Below, piece after piece: positions 1 to 13,918 of a stretch of DNA of 18,310 bases; within the stretch, counting starts at the first letter, position 1; each line of letters opens with the position of its first letter. The DNA comes from Burkholderiales bacterium (GTDB taxonomy: Bacteria > Pseudomonadota > Gammaproteobacteria > Burkholderiales > Burkholderiaceae), in NCBI GenBank assembly GCA_947371645.1, contig CANBQJ010000057.1, positions 1 to 18,310 on the forward strand, in the 5' to 3' direction. Below the pieces are notes generated by a model. It saw nothing but the letters and a program-made list of their open reading frames with translations, was not told the DNA's origin and did not search any database. Made by a program: the position numbers and the translations under genes.

Positions 1-141
1 CCGCGTGTGGGCATCTGGGGGACGGTGAAGCGCTGGTGGCGGCAACCAGCCAGGCGCGCGGGTGTCAAAGTGACACCGGCGGCGGCGCAAGGGGCCGAGG
101 CGGTGCTGGACGACGCGGAAGAAGCCTGGCGGGTGCGGTGA
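1..141 (+). CDS. possible C-terminal end of an unidentified protein (partial)
   Basis: Frame 1 is open from the window edge to a TGA at 139-141 and encodes about 46 residues, ending in an acidic stretch and WRVR. The product is rich in Ala, Arg and Trp and I do not recognise a family. Codon third positions are mostly G or C, as in the rest of the window. The last 15 bases lie inside the oppositely oriented tRNA-Ser gene, so the two genes are convergent and overlap. Frame 3 is also open here, so the coding call is weak. A perfect inverted repeat (61-77) lies inside it. Confidence 0.35.
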   Translation, partial: PRVGIWGTVKRWWRQPARRAGVKVTPAAAQGAEAVLDDAEEAWRVR

Positions 142-216
142 GATTCGAACTCACGGAGGGGATAAACCCTCGCCGGTTTTCAAGACCGGTGCCTTAAACC
201 GCTCGGCCACACACCC
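127..216 (-). tRNA. tRNA-Ser (anticodon UGA)
   Basis: Read on the minus strand from 216, the sequence folds as a class II tRNA. The acceptor strand GGGTGTG pairs with CGCACCC (one G-T pair). A D-arm follows (GGCCGAGCGGTTTAAGGC), then an anticodon stem CCGGT/ACCGG around CTTGAAA with anticodon TGA. There is a long variable arm (GAGGGTTTATCCCCTC) and a T-arm GTGAG-TTCGAAT-CTCAC. The discriminator is G, and CCA is genome-encoded at 129-127. The length of 90 nt is usual for tRNA-Ser. UGA reads UCA and other UCN serine codons. Its 3' end overlaps the end of a possible plus-strand gene. Confidence 0.97.
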
Positions 217-1136: not shown

Positions 1137-2441
1137 GTGCCGCTTATGGACCTGGCCCTGCTGATCTTCCTGACCTTGCTCAACGGCTTGTTCGCCATGT
1201 CGGAGATGGGGCTGGCCGCCAGCCGCAAGGCCCGTCTTCAGGTCATGGCCGAAACCGGCGACGTCGGGGCCATGGTGGCCATGAGCCTGCACGACAACCC
1301 CACGCAGTTCCTGTCCACGGTGCAAATTGGCATCACGTCCATCGGTGTGCTCAACGGCATCGTGGGTGAAGCGGCGTTCTCGCCACCCCTGGCCGACTGG
1401 CTGCAGACCAAATTCCCGCTCACAGACCGTGTCGCCAGCATCACGGCCACGGCGCTGGTGGTGATCATCATCACCATCGTGTCCATCATCTTTGGCGAAC
1501 TGGTGCCCAAGCGCGTCGGCCAGATGTACCCGGAGTCCGTGGCCCGCCTGATTTCGCGCCCCATGTTGTGGCTGTCGCGCGCCACGCGGCCGCTGGTGCG
1601 CTTCCTGTCGTTCACCACAGACGCCGTGCTCAAGCTGCTGGGCATCAGGGACAACGGCAGCCGCAGCGTCACCGAAGAAGAGATTGCCGCGCAGCTGGAA
1701 GAGGGGCTGGACGCCGGCGTGATCGAGGCCCACGAGCACCAGATGGTGCGCAATGTGTTCCGCCTGGACGACCGCCAGATCGGCTCGATGATGATCCCGC
1801 GCAGCGACATCGCCTGGCTGAACCTCGAGGTCTCGGTGAGCGACAACCTGGCCACCATCGCCCAGCACGGCTATTCGCGCTACCCGGTTTGCCGCGGTGG
1901 CCTGGACGATGTGGTGGGCGTGGCTTCGGCGCAGTCGCTGCTGCACCAGCTGTCGCAGTCGGGCGAGATCGAGCTGGACAAGGGCCTGTTGCCGGCTGTC
2001 TTCGTACCGGAGACGCTCTCGGGCATGGAGCTGCTGGAGCACTTCCGCGGCTCGGACACGCAGATGGTCTTCGTGGTGGACGAGTATGGTGAGATCCAGG
2101 GTGTGATCACCTTGCGCGACGTGCTGGAGGCCATCACTGGCGAATTCAAGCCCCCTGAGCCGGAAGACGCCTGGGCCATCCAGCGTGACGATGGCTCCTG
2201 GCTGATCGACGGGCTGATCCCGGTGCCCGAGCTCAAGGACAGGCTGGAGATCAAGTCCATGCCAGACGAAGACCGGGGCCGCTACAACACCCTGGCCGGC
2301 ATGGTGATGCTGCTCTTGGGCCGCCTGCCGCAAACCACCGACGCGGTCGAGTGGGAAGACTGGCGCTACGAGGTGGTCGACATGGACGGCAAGCGCATCG
2401 ACAAGGTTCTGGCCACCCGCCTGCCCCCATCGCGCCATTGA
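1137..2441 (+). CDS. CNNM/CorC-HlyC family membrane protein (DUF21, CBS pair, CorC_HlyC domain)
   Basis: This is an inner-membrane protein of the hemolysin C/CorC/YtfL (PaeA) family. Family members are linked to magnesium, cobalt or polyamine efflux; the substrate cannot be read from the sequence. An N-terminal DUF21 transmembrane domain (about 1-190) has hydrophobic segments near 5-25, 62-80 and 98-120 and the conserved GELVPKRV at 120-127. A CBS pair follows: CBS1 about 219-272 starting MIPRSDI, and CBS2 about 286-337 ending ITLRDVLEAITGEF. A CorC_HlyC domain runs from about 345 to 430, with GRYNTLAG at 381-388. The length of 434 is typical. I chose GTG 1137 because GGGAA (1126-1130) sits 6 bases upstream; ATG 1146 is the alternative and would shorten the protein by 3 residues. 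It is convergent with comEC, with 19 bp between the stop codons and no clear terminator. Confidence 0.91.
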   Translation: MPLMDLALLIFLTLLNGLFAMSEMGLAASRKARLQVMAETGDVGAMVAMSLHDNPTQFLSTVQIGITSIGVLNGIVGEAAFSPPLADWLQTKFPLTDRVASITATALVVIIITIVSIIFGELVPKRVGQMYPESVARLISRPMLWLSRATRPLVRFLSFTTDAVLKLLGIRDNGSRSVTEEEIAAQLEEGLDAGVIEAHEHQMVRNVFRLDDRQIGSMMIPRSDIAWLNLEVSVSDNLATIAQHGYSRYPVCRGGLDDVVGVASAQSLLHQLSQSGEIELDKGLLPAVFVPETLSGMELLEHFRGSDTQMVFVVDEYGEIQGVITLRDVLEAITGEFKPPEPEDAWAIQRDDGSWLIDGLIPVPELKDRLEIKSMPDEDRGRYNTLAGMVMLLLGRLPQTTDAVEWEDWRYEVVDMDGKRIDKVLATRLPPSRH

Positions 2442-2460: not shown

Positions 2461-5181
2461 TCAGCCCCCCGGCGCTTCGGGCGAGTCGCTCCAGTGGTGG
2501 GGGTGCGCTGAGCGCCAACAATGACCCAGACTGGGCAGGGCGCCAGGCGCTGAGGGTGTGCCCTGGTGAGCCGGCGCAAGTGAGGTGCCTTCTTCATCAC
2601 TGGCCCACCACCAGGCGCCACAGGTGGGGGTGGCCACCCAAGACAGCCCCAGGGCTTCATACCGTGACAGCACGCCTGGAGACGGGTGCCCATACCGGTT
2701 GCGTGCACCTGCCTGGACCACCACCTGCGCCGGCTGCACCGCCTGCAGGAATTCAGGCGTGGAGGATGTTGCGCTGCCGTGATGGGGCGCCATCAAGACC
2801 GTGGCGCGAAGGGCCGCACGCAATTCGGGGTCATGTTCGGCCTGCTGCACCAGGGCGGCTTCTTGCGGCGCCTCGATGTCGGCAGTCAGCAGCAGGCTGC
2901 GTGCTGGCCGGGCCCCGTCCGTGTCACGGCTCACCCTGAGCACGCAAGAGTGGGCGTTGGGCTCGTCAGCGTGCTCACCTGCCCGCATGGGGTGCAACAC
3001 TTCAAAGCGCACGCCGTCCCAATCCCAGCTCAAGCCCTGCTGGCAGGCGACATGGGGCAAGGGCTGCGGCCCTCCCTGAGCGCGCCAGCTCAGCCAGGTG
3101 CGAACCGGGTGCTCAGGCACCAGGCTGCTCACCAGCTGCGTCACCGGCAGCCCCGCCAGCACCGACAAGGCACCGCCCACGTGGTCGCTGTCTTCATGGC
3201 TGATCATCAGCACATCGAGTTTGCGCACACCCAGGGTCTGCAAGGCCGGCAGGATGTGTCGCGCGCCAGCGTCCATGTCCTCGCCCATCCTGGGGCCGGT
3301 GTCAAACAGCAAGGCGTGCTGCCGGGTGCGCACCAGCACCGCCGTGCCCTGACCGATGTCGATGGCCAGGGTTTGAAACTGCCCGGCCACCGGCAGGGGC
3401 AGCAGGTGCCAGCCCGGCGGCAAGGCCAGCAGGGGCAGCAAAGCCAAGGCCCAGCCCCATCGCCATCCGCGCGGACCGGGCCACACCCACAGCAAGCCTG
3501 CCAGCACGCCCCAGAGGCCCAGCCAGGTGGGGGGCTCCGCCCAGGCACCCACCGCCCATGACCAGCTGGCCACGTGGCGCAAGGCCTGCATGAACACATC
3601 GAGCACCGCCGCGTCCAGCCGCCACAGCGGCGGACAGGCCATGCCCAGCAAAGCCAGCGGTGTCACGCACAAGTCGAACAGGGGGATGGCCAGCAGGTTC
3701 ACCAGCACCCCCGCCAGCGACACCTGGTGGAAACACACCACCGCCACCGGCGCCATGGCCACCGACAGCAACACCTGCACCCTGGTCAGCGCACGGACTG
3801 CCGCCCACACCGTGCGCCACGCCGATCCACACCAGCCCGCCCAAGCCGCCAGACCCGGGACAGACCCACGTTCTTCTGGCTCGGGCGTGCCCGCATCTCC
3901 CATGGTCATCAGCACCACCACACACAGGAAGGACAACCAGAAGCCCGCTTGCAACAGCGCCCAGGGGTCGATGAGGGCCACCGCTGCCATCACCCACAGG
4001 CTGGAGAGCGTCCAGGGCCAATCCCGGCCGCTGGCACGCAACAGCGCCAGGCCCAGCATGGTCCACACCGTGCGCTGAGCCGGCAAGCCCCACCCCGACA
4101 GGACGGCATAGGCCGCACACACCGAGATGGACAAGGCCGCCGCCGCCAAGGGTGCCGGACAGGCGTGGGCCAGGCGCTGTGACCGCCCCCAATGCCGGCG
4201 CACCAGCCAGGCCACCCACCAGCCCACCACCGCGATGTGAGACCCGCTGATGCTCACCAGGTGGGCCACGCCGGTGCGGCGAAACACGTCCCAGTCGTCG
4301 CGGGTCACGGCAGACTGGTCGCCCACGGTGAGCCCGGCCAGCACGCCCGCCAAGGCAGGCTCATCCACCTGTTGCGTGATGCGAGCGCGCAAAGCAGCCC
4401 GCCACCGGTCCAGCATCCCGACCAGGCGCCAGGCGGACGCTGGCCGATCCTGGCGCAGGTCTGCGGGCTTGTTGCCCACTCGGCCCACGGCCCCGATGCC
4501 GTGCTCCCAGGCCATGAGCACGGCATCGGGGCCGCCCGGGTTGGCCACGCCATCGGGTCGATGCCAGTTGGCCTTCAACCACCAAGAGCTCCCTGGCAGC
4601 GGCATGGGCCCGAGAGGCCAATAGACGCGCACGCGCTGGATCGGCGTCAGGCGGGGCAACTCGCTGTCGGCGACGGCCACCAGGCGCCCGGCCTTCCGCG
4701 CCGGCACAGGGTCACCCTGCCAGCGCAGCACCTGCGCCTCCAGCTGCCAGCCCCCCGTTGGCAAAGGCTGAGGCAGGCTGTCCACCAGCACCTGCGCGCC
4801 GGCCAGCCGGGGGCCAAGGTCCGCAGGCCACATGGCGGCGGCGCGGACCTGCGCACGCCATCCCACCATCGCGAACGCACACATGGCCAGGGCCAAGCCA
4901 CACAGCAGCTGGCGCCCTGCCACCAGCCACACAGGGGCGAGCACCTTCGGCAGCCTGTGCCCTGCCCAGACCAGCGAGGCCAGCGCGCAGCCGGACACCG
5001 CCACCAAGGCCTGACACCAGGCCATGGGCCACAGTGAAGGACTCAGCAACCCTGCCGCCAAGCCCAACAACAGACACCCAGGCCCGCCATACCAGGCGCG
5101 CAGCGACGCCGCAGGCCAGCTGCCCACGGCAACGCTGGGCTCGCCCGCCACGGCAGCGAATGGCATGCCCACCGCGCTCAC
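2461..5181 (-). CDS. comEC: DNA internalization-related competence protein ComEC/Rec2
   Basis: ComEC is the inner-membrane channel that carries single-stranded DNA into the cytoplasm during natural transformation. The 906-residue product shows the full architecture: N-terminal membrane segments and a DUF4131-like region (about 30-230), a multi-pass Competence domain (about 270-580) with the hallmark [13 protein letters not shown] near 307-319, and a C-terminal metallo-beta-lactamase-like domain (about 600-860). The last domain carries DIGQG 608-612, [10 protein letters not shown] 661-670, LLTADIE 764-770, APHHGS 798-803 and GHPSP 831-835. These are the metal-site motifs expected for the proposed nuclease. 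The position after GQG is Thr rather than the frequent Asp, which varies among ComECs. The start GTG (5181-5179) overlaps the intI stop TGA (5180-5178) as GTGA. ATG 5166 is an alternative start. Neither has a strong ribosome site, which suggests reinitiation after intI. There is no frameshift or truncation. Confidence 0.95.
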
Positions 5182-6176
5182 AGCACGTCCAACGGGCTTT
5201 GCACCCCGCCGCCACCCACTTTGAGCACGTGGGTGTAGATCATCGTGGTGCTCACGTCGCTGTGGCCCAGCAGTTCTTGCACGGTCCGGATGTCGTAGCG
5301 GGCCTGCAGCAGGTGGGTGGCAAAAGAATGCCTGAGCGTGTGAGGCGAAGCCGGCTTGACGATGGCCGTGCGGCGCAGCGCCCGCTTGAACGCCCGCTGG
5401 AAGGTCTGGTCCAGCAGGTGGTGGCGGCGCCGGATCTGGTCACGCGGGTCCATGGCCGTTTCGGCCGCCGGGAACAACCAGAACCAGCTCCATGTGTGGC
5501 CCACGTTGGGGTATTTGGCCGCCAACGCGTGGGGCGTCCACACACCGGCCAGCTTCGCTTTGCGGTCCCCGGCCCACAAGACCTGCGCGTGACGGATCTG
5601 TGCACGCAATGGCACGACCAGGCGAGCGGGCAGCATCACCGTGCGGTCCTTGCCACCCTTACCGTCCCGCACCACGATGGCGCGGTGGTCGAAGTCGACG
5701 TCCTTGATGCGCAGGCGCAGGCCCTCCATGAGCCGCATGCCCGTACCGTAGAGCAACTGCCCGAACAGCTGGTGTGCGGGCTCCAGGGCGGCCAGCACCT
5801 GCCCCACCTCTTCGTGCGACAGCACCACGGGCAGCTTGCGTGAGCCCTTGGGCCGCCCGATGTCCTGGAACCAGGGCATGTCCATGCCCAGCACCTGCTT
5901 GTAGAGGAAGAGCAAGGCCGACAGCGCCTGCTTGTGCGTCGATGCCGACACCTTGCGCTCATTGGCCAGGTGGCTGAGGAAGGCCTCCACCTCGGCCACG
6001 CCCAGTTCACGCGGGTGCTTCAAGCCGGCAAATCGCACGAAATCGCGCACCCATTGGACATAGGCCTGTTCGGTGCGCAGGCTGTAGTGCAGGTAACGGG
6101 TGCGTTCCCGGACCTGGTCCAGCAGCATGGGTGACTGCAAGGCAGGCATGGGCAATGGCATGTCGGGCGCGACCAT
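5178..6176 (-). CDS. intI: integron integrase IntI (site-specific tyrosine recombinase)
   Basis: IntI recombines attI and attC sites to capture, excise and shuffle gene cassettes. This 332-residue protein aligns from memory along its whole length with IntI1 of class 1 integrons (337 residues), well beyond the catalytic core. Shared blocks include [41 protein letters not shown] and [12 protein letters not shown]. Catalytic residues are all present: R148, K173, H279, R282, H305 and nucleophile Y314, each offset by two from IntI1. The IntI-specific insertion is present at about 218-238 ([17 protein letters not shown]), which separates it from XerC/XerD. I chose ATG 6176 because it gives the family length and follows GGGAGAGGAG at 6196-6187; the frame stays open upstream to 6326. 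Base composition by eye matches the neighbours. The stop overlaps the comEC start, and ridA is divergent. No cassette array flanks it on either side. Confidence 0.96.
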
Positions 6177-6397
6177 GGTGGGTCCACTCCTCTCCCTGTT
6201 GGCGTGTTGTTCGTTTGCTCTGTCGGCAGTCTCTTCAAACATGTGCCGACCAACCACCCACAAAAGGAGGCGAGGCCACCCATACCTCCGGGGGATGACA
6301 AGTCGCTCAGCCACGCGCCAAGGCACGCTGCGATAGACTCAGGCCCACAGCTCGCCGACCGGCGCGCGAGCCCGCACAACGCGCACACCGCATCGCC
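6177..6397. other. intI/ridA divergent intergenic region, expected location of attI
   Basis: This is the 221 bp upstream of intI, where attI and the cassette promoter lie in classical integrons. I searched both strands for the core RYYYAAC/GTTRRRY and found no exact match; GTTGGCG (6198-6204, +) and GTTGGTC (6254-6248, -) each differ at one position. No CTG-N10-CAG LexA-type box was seen. On the minus strand GGAGG (6289-6285) can pair with CCTCC (6270-6266), followed directly by TTTT. A weak -10-like TAGACT (6334-6339) could serve ridA, but no -35 is evident. Nothing else is recognised. Confidence 0.5.
6187..6196 (-). promoter_or_regulatory. ribosome binding site deciding the intI start
   Basis: The minus strand reads GGGAGAGGAG, a strong Shine-Dalgarno match, 10 bases before ATG 6176. 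It supports the 332-residue integrase over the 382-residue frame that begins with a GTG at 6326. Confidence 0.75.
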
Positions 6398-6853
6398 ATG
6401 TCCATCGCACAACGCCTCCAAGACCTGGGCATCACCCTGCCCCCCGTGTCCGTTCCCGCTGCCGCCTACGTGCCCTTCGTGCGCACCGGCAACCTGGTGT
6501 TCCTGTCGGGTCACATTGCCAAGCGCAACGGCCAGGTCTGGGCGGGGCAACTGGGCAAGGGCCTCAGCACTGCCGAGGGCAAGGAGGCCGCACGCCTGGT
6601 GGCCATCGACCTGCTGGGCACACTGAATGCGGCCGCCGGTGGCCTGGATCACGTGGTGCGCATCGTCAAGGTGATGTCGCTGGTCAACAGCACGCCCGAT
6701 TTCACCGAGCAGCACCTGGTGACCAACGGCTGCTCCGAATTGCTGGCCGAAGTGCTTGGCGAAGCCGGCGTGCACGCCCGCAGCGCCTTCGGTGTGGCCC
6801 AGATCCCCCTGGGTGCTTGCGTTGAAATCGAACTCATCGCCGAAGTGCGCTGA
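6398..6853 (+). CDS. RidA family protein (YjgF/YER057c/UK114)
   Basis: RidA proteins hydrolyse reactive enamine/imine intermediates such as 2-aminoacrylate released by PLP enzymes; paralogue subfamilies have other or unknown roles. The 151-residue product has the chorismate-mutase-like RidA core. It carries LVFLSGHIAKRNG (33-45), the central VVRIVKVMSLVNS (86-98) and the C-terminal HARSAFGVAQIPLGACVEIE (126-145). R128 is at the position of the substrate-carboxylate-binding Arg. It is longer at the N-terminus than E. coli RidA (128 residues), as in the subgroup of RidA-like proteins of about 150 residues, so deaminase activity is likely but not certain. The ATG at 6398 has no strong ribosome site. 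dsbB follows after 22 bp on the same strand, and intI is divergent. Confidence 0.92.
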   Translation: MSIAQRLQDLGITLPPVSVPAAAYVPFVRTGNLVFLSGHIAKRNGQVWAGQLGKGLSTAEGKEAARLVAIDLLGTLNAAAGGLDHVVRIVKVMSLVNSTPDFTEQHLVTNGCSELLAEVLGEAGVHARSAFGVAQIPLGACVEIELIAEVR

Positions 6854-6875: not shown

Positions 6876-7373
6876 ATGAAGCTTCCCATGCATTCGCGCC
6901 TGCTGCCCGCAGCAGCAGCCATGGCCTGCGTGGCCGCCGTGGGCGCCGCCCTCTATGGCCAGCACGAGCTCAACATGCAGCCCTGCCCCTGGTGCATCCT
7001 CCAGCGCATGCTGTTCATGCTCCTGGCCGCCTGGCTGGGCGTGGCGGCCTTGCTGCCCCGCTCTGCCCTGCAGCGCGGCTGGTCGGCGCTGGCCGCCGTG
7101 CCTGCCGCCTGCGGCATCGCCGCCGCGCTGTGGCAGCACTTCGTGGCCGCCAAATCGGCGTCTTGTGCGCTCACCCTGGCCGACCGCATCCTCACCACCA
7201 CCGGGCTGGACGTGCAGTTTCCTGAGGTCTTCGAGGTGCGCGCCAACTGTTCTGACGCGGCCGTGAGCATCCTGGGCGTGCCATTCGAGTTCTGGAGCCT
7301 GGCGCTGTTCGCCATCCTGGCCGCCCTGGCCCTGGGTCACGCACTCGCCCGTGCGCCCGATGCTGGACACTGA
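6876..7373 (+). CDS. dsbB: disulfide bond formation protein B
   Basis: DsbB is the inner-membrane quinone reductase that reoxidises the periplasmic dithiol oxidase DsbA. The 165-residue product has four predicted membrane segments (about 9-27, 43-60, 69-88 and 137-157). Both cysteine pairs are present: the first-loop CPWC at C37/C40 and the second-loop C97/C125. The QRM just after CPWC and the terminal ILGVPFEFWSLALF segment are typical of the family. I chose ATG 6876, which begins MKLPMHSRLL directly before the first membrane segment; ATG 6888 is possible. The frame is open upstream into ridA, but that extension is not family-like. The stop overlaps the start of pabBC, so these genes are probably co-transcribed. 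Confidence 0.94.
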   Translation: MKLPMHSRLLPAAAAMACVAAVGAALYGQHELNMQPCPWCILQRMLFMLLAAWLGVAALLPRSALQRGWSALAAVPAACGIAAALWQHFVAAKSASCALTLADRILTTTGLDVQFPEVFEVRANCSDAAVSILGVPFEFWSLALFAILAALALGHALARAPDAGH

Positions 7374-9222
7374 CCTGCAGCACGCCACGGCGCTGGTCGA
7401 CTTCCCCGGCGCCGACGGCCAGCGTGAGCGCTGGCAATTTGGTCAACCCTTGCAATGGCTGGTGGCCCACGACCCCTTGCAGGTGCCCGCCTTGCTGGAC
7501 GCCGCCCACGCGCAGGCGCAAGCCGGCCGCTGGTGTGTGGGTTGGGTGGCCTACGAAGCCGCCCCTGGGCTCAACCCTGACCTGCCCGCCAAAGCGACGC
7601 CCCCAGGCGCGGTGTACGCCGTCTGGGCCGTGTTCGACCAGGCCCAGGCCAGCTGGCCGCAAGACCACACCCCGGCGCCGCCAGCGCCCTGGCACATGGG
7701 CCCCTGGCAATCGAGCTGGACGGCCGATCAGGCGCGGCAGCGCATCGACGCCATCCACGAGCTGATCCGCCAGGGCGAGGTCTACCAGATCAACCTCACC
7801 GAGCGCCTGCAAGCCCCTTGGGAGGCTGAGCACACCCAACAGCCCACGGCCGCCCTGCACGCTTGCTTCCAGGCCCTGCAACGCAGCCAGCCCGATGGCT
7901 ACGCCCTCTTCCTGGACGGCCGCGCGGCCACCCGCCAGCCCGGTGTGGTGATGAGCGTCTCTCCCGAGTTGTTCGTCGACTGGTCTGGCGACGCGCTCAC
8001 CACCCGCCCCATGAAAGGCACGGCACCTCGCCGTTGGGACGCCGACGAAGACCAGGCCCAGGCTGCGCACCTGCAGCGGTCCGAGAAGGAACGCGCCGAA
8101 AACCTGATGATCGTGGACCTGCTGCGCAACGACCTGTCCCGCGTGGCCGTGACCGGCAGCGTGCACGTGCCCAGCCTGTTCGACGTGCAGGCCTTGCCCA
8201 CGGTCTGGCAGATGACCTCCACCGTCACCGCCCGCGCGCGGCCCGGCCTGCGCCTGAGCGAACTGATGGCGGCCACCTTCCCGTGTGGCTCGGTCACCGG
8301 GGCGCCCAAACGCCAGGCCATGCACCACATCGCCCGGCTGGAAAGCGCGCCACGCGGGGTGTACTGCGGCGCCGCTGGCCTGATGCGCCCCGGCGGGCAT
8401 GTCACCTTCAACGTGCCCATCCGCACGGTCAGCGTGCACACGCCGCCCCCACCGGCGCCCTGGCGCGCGGACTGCGGCATCGGCAGCGGCATCACCCTGG
8501 ACGCCCAGGCCGATGCCGAACTGGCCGAGTGGCGCCACAAGCGCGCCTTCCTGCAGCGCGCCGAAGCACCTTTTCAGCTGCTGGAATCGCTGCGGCTGGA
8601 GAGTGGCCAGTTGCTGAGGCTGGATGCGCACCTGCGTCGCATGCACAAGGCCGCGCTGTACTTTGGATTCAGCACCGCCGCGCGATGGTCCCGGCATGAA
8701 CTGGCGCTGCGTGAAGCCCTGGCCCACGCCGTGACCAGTGTCGGCACGGCCTCTGGCGTCTGCAAAGTCCGCCTGCTGCTGGACGCCCAAGGGCAGGTGC
8801 AGGTCGAGGTCCAACCGCTGGCCACCTCGCCCGCCCACATCCGCGTGCACTGGGCCGAACAGCCCATGCCCGAAGCCGACGCCTTCATCCGCCACAAAAC
8901 CACCCATCGGCACGCCTACGACGCCCACCAAGCGCCCGCCGGCTGCTTTGACACCTTGCTGCACAACGTGCAAGGGGAGCTCACGGAGTTCACCATCGGC
9001 AACCTGGCCTTGCAGGTGGACGGCCGCTGGCTCACCCCGCCGCTGTCGGCGGGACTGCTGCCGGGCGTCATGCGCGCCGAGTTGCTCGCCAGTGGTCAGT
9101 TGAGCGAAGCGACCCTGACCACCGCCGACGTGCGGCATGCGCAAGGCGCCGCACTCATCAACAGCGTTCGCGGCTGGCTTGCCGTGGACCTGCCCCACCT
9201 GCAGAACCAATTGCTCAGCTGA
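7360..9222 (+). CDS. pabBC: fused aminodeoxychorismate synthase component I / 4-amino-4-deoxychorismate lyase
   Basis: This bifunctional enzyme converts chorismate plus ammonia to 4-amino-4-deoxychorismate (PabB half) and then to p-aminobenzoate plus pyruvate (PabC half) for folate. Residues here count from GTG 7351. The chorismate-binding domain (about 120-400) has EVYQINLTERL (143-153), PMKGTAP (220-226), the core CGSVTGAPK (312-320) and CGIGSGITLDAQAD (375-388). The Lys of PMKGT (K222) distinguishes ADC synthases from anthranilate synthases, which have PIAGT. The class IV aminotransferase-fold half (about 408-620) has ESLRL, HKTTHR with likely PLP lysine K516, and GELTEFTIGNLAL (542-554). 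No glutamine amidotransferase (PabA) is in the window. Starts ATG 7360 or GTG 7351 both overlap dsbB, by 14 or 23 bases, which suggests coupled translation. Confidence 0.94.
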   Translation: MLDTDLQHATALVDFPGADGQRERWQFGQPLQWLVAHDPLQVPALLDAAHAQAQAGRWCVGWVAYEAAPGLNPDLPAKATPPGAVYAVWAVFDQAQASWPQDHTPAPPAPWHMGPWQSSWTADQARQRIDAIHELIRQGEVYQINLTERLQAPWEAEHTQQPTAALHACFQALQRSQPDGYALFLDGRAATRQPGVVMSVSPELFVDWSGDALTTRPMKGTAPRRWDADEDQAQAAHLQRSEKERAENLMIVDLLRNDLSRVAVTGSVHVPSLFDVQALPTVWQMTSTVTARARPGLRLSELMAATFPCGSVTGAPKRQAMHHIARLESAPRGVYCGAAGLMRPGGHVTFNVPIRTVSVHTPPPPAPWRADCGIGSGITLDAQADAELAEWRHKRAFLQRAEAPFQLLESLRLESGQLLRLDAHLRRMHKAALYFGFSTAARWSRHELALREALAHAVTSVGTASGVCKVRLLLDAQGQVQVEVQPLATSPAHIRVHWAEQPMPEADAFIRHKTTHRHAYDAHQAPAGCFDTLLHNVQGELTEFTIGNLALQVDGRWLTPPLSAGLLPGVMRAELLASGQLSEATLTTADVRHAQGAALINSVRGWLAVDLPHLQNQLLS

Positions 9223-13474: not shown

Positions 13475-13918
13475 ATGCTACGTGTACCCATCGACGCCCC
13501 CCTTCAGGACGACTTCATCGCCCAACACTCACCCGAGCGCCTGCAGCGCATCCAGCAGGTGCGCGGCCTGTGCCTCGGCATGGTGCTGGGCCTCATTGCC
13601 CTGGGCCTGGCCTGGGAGCTGAAGTTGGCGCCCCTGCCCGGCGGAACCGGCGCCCTGGCCTTGAAGGTGCTGCCCCTCACCTTCGCGGTGGCGGGCATGC
13701 TCAGGCACCGGCTCTACACCTTCCGCTGGATGTCGCTGCTGGTGTGGCTCTACTTCACCGAAGGCGTGGTGCGTGGCACCAGCGACGCCGGCGTCTCCCA
13801 GGTCTGCGCCTGGGCAGAAATCGCCCTGAGCACCGGCCTGTTCGTGGGCTGCGCGGTTTACGTGAAACTGCGGCTGAAGGTGCTGCCGCCCAAAGACAAG
13901 TCCAAGCTCAAGGCTTGA
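13475..13918 (+). CDS. DUF2069 family membrane protein
   Basis: This small inner-membrane protein of unknown function has 147 residues and about four hydrophobic segments (near 32-48, 62-76, 84-98 and 112-132). The cytoplasmic tail is Lys-rich (KDKSKLKA). The central RLYTFRWMSLLVWLYFTEGVVRG and the following acidic/Ala segment are what I recognise as DUF2069. I chose ATG 13475. ATG 13454 in the same frame has a better-placed AAGG but would share its CATG with the divergent yihY start codon. The FAD oxidoreductase gene follows after 12 bp and is probably co-transcribed. Confidence 0.82.
   Translation: MLRVPIDAPLQDDFIAQHSPERLQRIQQVRGLCLGMVLGLIALGLAWELKLAPLPGGTGALALKVLPLTFAVAGMLRHRLYTFRWMSLLVWLYFTEGVVRGTSDAGVSQVCAWAEIALSTGLFVGCAVYVKLRLKVLPPKDKSKLKA

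Follow-up and report, generated by a model that had tools for sequence, protein, structure and literature searches.

The intI locus

The 18,310-nt stretch of DNA analysed here (hereafter the window) carries on its minus strand an integron integrase gene, intI, whose end overlaps the start of comEC and which a short divergent spacer separates from a ridA gene on the opposite strand. The features concerned are the following:

127..216, minus strand: tRNA-Ser (TGA)
1137..2441, plus strand: gene for a CNNM/CorC-type protein, found beyond comEC in relatives as well
2461..5181, minus strand: comEC, competence DNA channel, 906 aa, full-length (TIGR00361, 269.8 bits, cut-off 190.05)
5178..6176, minus strand: intI, 332 aa plus stop, uninterrupted, with all catalytic residues
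6177..6397: divergent spacer between intI and ridA, 221 nt
6398..6853, plus strand: ridA, RidA/YjgF-family gene (Pfam PF14588 and PF01042)
6876..7373, plus strand: dsbB (Pfam PF02600)
7351..9222, plus strand: pabB, fused in a single frame to a class IV aminotransferase domain at the C-terminus

The original prediction of a complete 332-residue integrase with six named catalytic residues is borne out, as R148, K173, H279, R282, H305 and Y314 are all found in the uninterrupted translation, and these residues are also kept in relatives, being identical across all 43 rows (43/43) of the protein's own tree clade. A longer frame could be read from a GTG at 6326 (382 aa). P0002, the nearest protein, which is 90% identical to the window IntI over all 332 residues with both ends coinciding, has the identical Met start and the identical length, which points to the 332-aa frame, and the predicted ribosome site is indeed present as an AGGAG 10 nt 5' of the intI ATG.

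With regard to family membership, the window IntI scores 457 bits against the NCBIfam integron integrase model TIGR02249 (cut-off 265) and 485.7 bits against NF011946 (cut-off 435), when the XerC and XerD models give 150 and 146.2, both under their own cut-offs; in PHROGs, it matches general phage integrase families and one family of unknown function, and nothing else. Among integron integrases of solved structure, its nearest relative is 2a3v ('IntI4'; E 6.1e-85), with which a 28-residue stretch of the window protein pairs without a gap, the match running gap-free through the IntI-specific extra-helix region. By hand count, W231, P244, H252 and H253 of the window protein lie opposite W219, P232, H240 and H241 of 2a3v, which we take to be the contacts of that chain to extrahelical attC bases. 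The match to 2a3v and to the IntI models settles the fold, and the family scores, the catalytic residues and the extra-helix region together identify the predicted protein as an integron integrase.

Its phylogenetic position agrees with this assignment. In a tree of 97 rows, made of 94 IntI and three Xer sequences (L154-L156; the Xer rows L157-L159 were left out), the Xer rows split from the IntI rows with a support of 100/100, on a very long branch (5.65 plus 4.35). An identity as XerC or XerD was rejected on the under-threshold Xer scores and on this separation, the family scores carrying the argument. The window IntI and P0002 pair at 100/100 inside a 43-row clade (100/95) made up of Aquabacterium and environmental sequences, with the IntI1-type rows outside; its identity to the latter is 65%, including to L029, which stands on a separate branch and which we take to be the IntI1 of class 1 integrons. 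Class 1 integrons are mobile and carry resistance cassettes. More broadly, IntI is detected at E <= 1e-40 in 34 of the 42 genomes of the genus of G174 and at E <= 1e-80 in 166 of 399 genomes drawn from the wider family. Integron integrases are therefore common in the group, and it is the place of the gene and its absent parts that make up the unusual side of this locus.

Placement of intI in the comEC-ridA gap

The stop codon of intI (TGA) and the start codon of comEC (GTG), both on the minus strand, overlap by 4 nt at 5178-5181, as verified at the codon level; were comEC to start at the alternative ATG at 5166, the overlap would be gone and 11 nt would be left between the two genes. From the comEC start to the ridA start the window counts 1216 nt; the corresponding gap of relatives is short. 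Among 43 comEC loci retrieved from relatives by comEC similarity (about 1.5 kb per side, some ended by contig ends, G052 excluded), ridA adjoins comEC in 34, and IntI is found within that distance of comEC in none. Four genus-mate loci (L082, L099, L100 and L101) display the order CNNM-comEC-ridA-dsbB-pabB with no intI inside, and the corresponding genomes (G006, G050, G381 and G256) have their IntI located elsewhere, the copy of G050 being partial. Reciprocally, none of 16 other window genes is present in 80 loci picked by IntI similarity, many of them shortened by contig ends.

We also surveyed the distance between IntI and comEC in the 166 IntI-positive genomes, 139 of which have listed places for IntI; comEC places are known for 67 + 69 of them, which left 136 genomes to be compared by eye. 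Both genes lie on one contig in about 42 of the 136 (eye count), and on separate contigs in the remaining drafts, which speaks against adjacency, yet leaves room for adjacency at contig ends. Among the matches listed, intI directly abuts comEC in a single one of the 136 other genomes, G052, for a chance expectation of about 0.03 direct adjacencies (a rough, post hoc estimate at 1 in 4000 genes). With one case in 136, a conserved family locus uniting intI and comEC was rejected. In two further genomes, G271 and G194, intI lies about 3 kb from comEC with parC and ridA in between.

These observations qualify the core chromosomal setting that had been claimed for the gene. The housekeeping neighbours and the matching base composition (GC3 of 0.87 for intI, 0.82-0.91 for ten neighbours) uphold it; the place itself, however, is unusual, as relatives have comEC and ridA adjacent and their intI, if any, elsewhere. 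Since the window may be a metagenome contig, one could suspect an assembly chimera, in which an integron fragment was joined to a comEC-ridA locus. This would require a false join on either side of a single 1-kb gene, with one of the two hitting a stop/start overlap, and the GC3 of intI matches that of its neighbours, so that we regard such an artefact as very improbable.

The G052 case (L166) resembles the window in that intI sits up against comEC on the same strand: intI stops at 13800, 2 nt ahead of a comEC frame that can be read from a TTG at 13803 (first ATG at 13836). Unlike the window, this locus has retained a LexA box and an attI-type core as well as two attC matches, has no ridA match in the 19.5 kb examined, and encodes an IntI of another clade (99/92 group). 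Given these different clades, the two comEC adjacencies look independent. A group II intron maturase lies between the two attC matches of G052 (L166:9000-16300).

Other core genes are found at the same position relative to intI. In G004, G007, G174 and G423, all of the genus (loci L182:1754-4347, L004, L125 and L131), rimO is the next gene after intI, on its strand and within about 110 nt, and other groups have other common downstream genes. In G271 and G194, it is parC that directly follows intI on the same strand and separates it from ridA and comEC (L174:1985-18200 and L175); the plus strand of L174 bears 16 attC matches at E <= 0.01. Being parC-linked, these two near-comEC integrons were rejected as instances of the window arrangement. 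This layout, in which the integrons of relatives commonly terminate in an intI that leads into a core gene, speaks for the former presence of an entire integron at comEC.

attC, attI and LexA sites

The integron platform was then sought around intI. An attC covariance model, whose 19 seed sites come from relatives and from other integrons, was run with filters off and found no attC on either strand of the 18.3-kb window (best match 8.8 bits, E 1.4), that is, over 12.1 kb upstream and 5.2 kb downstream of intI. Of 30 loci (L166-L195) from the genomes of 29 relatives, 23 gave attC matches with this model at E <= 0.01; the set was hand-chosen rather than random, and both L181 hits are seeds of the model. 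The seven loci without such a match are L167, which has a single weak one (E 0.037), L179, L182, L185, L187, L194 and L195; L185 (G429), L195 (G414) and L167 (G052) are attC-free at this threshold despite offering 9-13 kb of upstream sequence. These seven loci imply that orphan IntI genes occur in the group. At L185, the LexA box and the attI-type core are absent too. In Aquabacterium lacunae (L005/L180), IntI stands among housekeeping-type genes with neither LexA box nor attI-type core, with a single attC about 5.2 kb upstream and with three changes at otherwise invariant columns.

No attI-type core (RYYYAAC or GTTRRRY) lies within 400 nt upstream of intI, where many relatives, though not all, have one; attI being variable, a divergent site may exist, and failing to find attI weighs less than failing to find attC. 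Likewise, no LexA box (CTGT-N8-ACAG) occurs at one mismatch or fewer within the 330 nt before intI, nor elsewhere near the gene. A perfect box precedes intI in 16 of the 30 relatives' loci and is missing in 14, including all 11 loci at 52-58% identity; in a second, overlapping locus set it is found in 12 of 16, 11 of these 12 belonging to the 14 clade mates with available DNA. As three of these 14 clade mates and 14 of the 30 loci are without it, its loss is not unusual. A search of positions 5000-6700 for sigma-70-type promoters returned no match, but G+C-rich promoters are easily missed and a cassette promoter Pc may have escaped detection. The 221-nt spacer gave nothing above chance in blastn against the attI regions and comEC-ridA spacers of relatives (best E 0.79), and the aligned identity of the upstream region to those of relatives is 0.31-0.41, for a mean of 0.41 among the relatives themselves.

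The expectation of a working sedentary chromosomal integron was therefore not confirmed: in the window, neither an attC array nor, within 400 nt of intI, an attI-type core, nor the LexA box of an SOS-regulated integrase was found, when most or many relatives have them. An intact integron with its cassettes where they normally lie was rejected, for no attC was found on either strand and ridA, dsbB and pabB are normal comEC neighbours in relatives rather than cassettes. Aquabacterium-type chromosomal integrons are among the nearest counterparts, as their IntI (L125/L168 in G174; L002 in A. soli) are 70-72% identical to that of the window and belong to the same clade. Unlike the window, the G174 integron includes attC sites as well as an attI-type core, its LexA box is perfect, and rimO comes next downstream; in A. 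soli (L002), an attI-type core is seen, and attC amounts to one cut-off weak match at the contig end.

Within 18.3 kb, the window thus shows an IntI gene with no nearby attC, as do the In0 elements of IntegronFinder, a known minority that accounts for 356 of the 3116 IntI genes counted across complete replicons (PMC9024848). It differs from them in that neither an attI-type core nor a LexA box was found and in that intI overlaps comEC. Cassettes or an attI may possibly lie elsewhere in the genome.

A probable orphan integrase at the head of comEC

Does intI still encode a functional protein? Selection on the protein was estimated in two ways. The alignment was scored over 322 columns, of which 127 show no variation among the 41 other clade members. 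Of the 29 differences scored between the window IntI and P0002, none falls on an invariant column and all lie in the remaining 195 (Fisher p 2.8e-7); three more, in unscored columns, bring the total to 32; the sole departure of the window from the invariant columns, T277S, is found in P0002 too. In addition, the dN/dS of intI against 11 relatives ranges from 0.12 to 0.36, at dS values of 0.7-2.1 that are near saturation. Both approaches show the purifying selection that had been anticipated, on an intact protein whose constraint may predate the stranding of the gene. P0002 itself is known from a 1973-base contig, its gene neighbourhood lying outside the comparison.

A recently stranded relic has to be considered, in which the platform would have been lately deleted and intI would now be functionless but have yet to decay. 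The failure to find attC, an attI-type core or a LexA box in the window agrees with such a scenario, as does the reported correlation between lack of LexA control and predicted integrase inactivation (PMC3108266). Furthermore, once the 32 differences from P0002 are polarised, 10 fall on the window branch, eight on the P0002 branch and 14 on neither with certainty, which does not separate constraint before stranding from constraint after it. Yet the 127 invariant columns are unchanged between the window and P0002, an outcome with a chance of 0.007 if the 10 assigned changes were evenly spread, and the GC3 of intI equals that of its neighbours. We hence hold a functionless relic to be rather unlikely.

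We rather favour, as the probable explanation from the sequence evidence, an orphan, In0-type IntI of the Aquabacterium lineage that stands at the head of the comEC unit and is probably still functional. Most likely, a whole chromosomal integron would once have occupied the comEC-ridA gap and later lost its attI, its LexA-regulated promoter and all of its cassettes; the other route would be a move of intI alone into the gap. Judging from the stop/start overlap, intI would be the first, promoter-proximal gene of the comEC transcription unit. As no LexA box was found, its expression should follow that of comEC or be constant instead of being SOS-controlled. Most likely, the protein has kept its ability to cut and join folded attC hairpins. 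With no attI or attC found beside the gene, it would have to act in trans, either on cassettes located at other places in the genome or on cassette DNA that enters the cell in single-stranded form. SOS control is held central to integron function (PMC8946536), and the survey linking its lack to predicted inactivation also reports putatively functional integrases devoid of a native LexA site (PMC3108266). The window IntI, intact and constrained with no LexA box or platform found, sides with these exceptions.

A bolder reading is that of a domestication into competence, whereby selection would have put or kept intI in the comEC unit and replaced its SOS control, such that the recombinase would coincide with the uptake of single-stranded DNA. 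The 4-nt overlap, the intact protein despite the LexA box not being found, and the IntI of another clade abutting comEC in G052 are all compatible with it. As a matter of fact, a precedent for a link between DNA uptake and integrase is reviewed in V. cholerae, where transformation brings single strands in through ComEC and induces IntIA via SOS (PMC8946536). Against this idea, direct adjacency is seen in just one of the 136 genomes compared, G052 still has its LexA box, attI-type core and attC, and same-strand sites upstream of rimO and parC are also used, such that comEC may be just one of many sites hit by chance. We accordingly consider such a domestication improbable. No intI-comEC unit is described in those titles and abstract openings that were listed from the literature on integrons and comEC or on integrases and competence.

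A coupling of intI to competence is nonetheless a possible and testable idea, of low to moderate probability. In its full form, for which we see a slim chance, intI would have escaped SOS control and would now head the comEC unit, and the recombinase would be made together with the single-stranded-DNA channel. If this were true, the co-produced channel would supply single-stranded DNA, the form of attC on which IntI acts, the independent IntI at comEC in G052 would represent a convergent case, and the direct wiring of intI to comEC would be a short cut of the transformation-to-IntIA logic of V. cholerae. With its intact and constrained IntI in front of the gene for the uptake channel, the window locus offers a direct test of whether integrases can be retained to act in trans and of whether DNA uptake and cassette capture can be connected independently of SOS.
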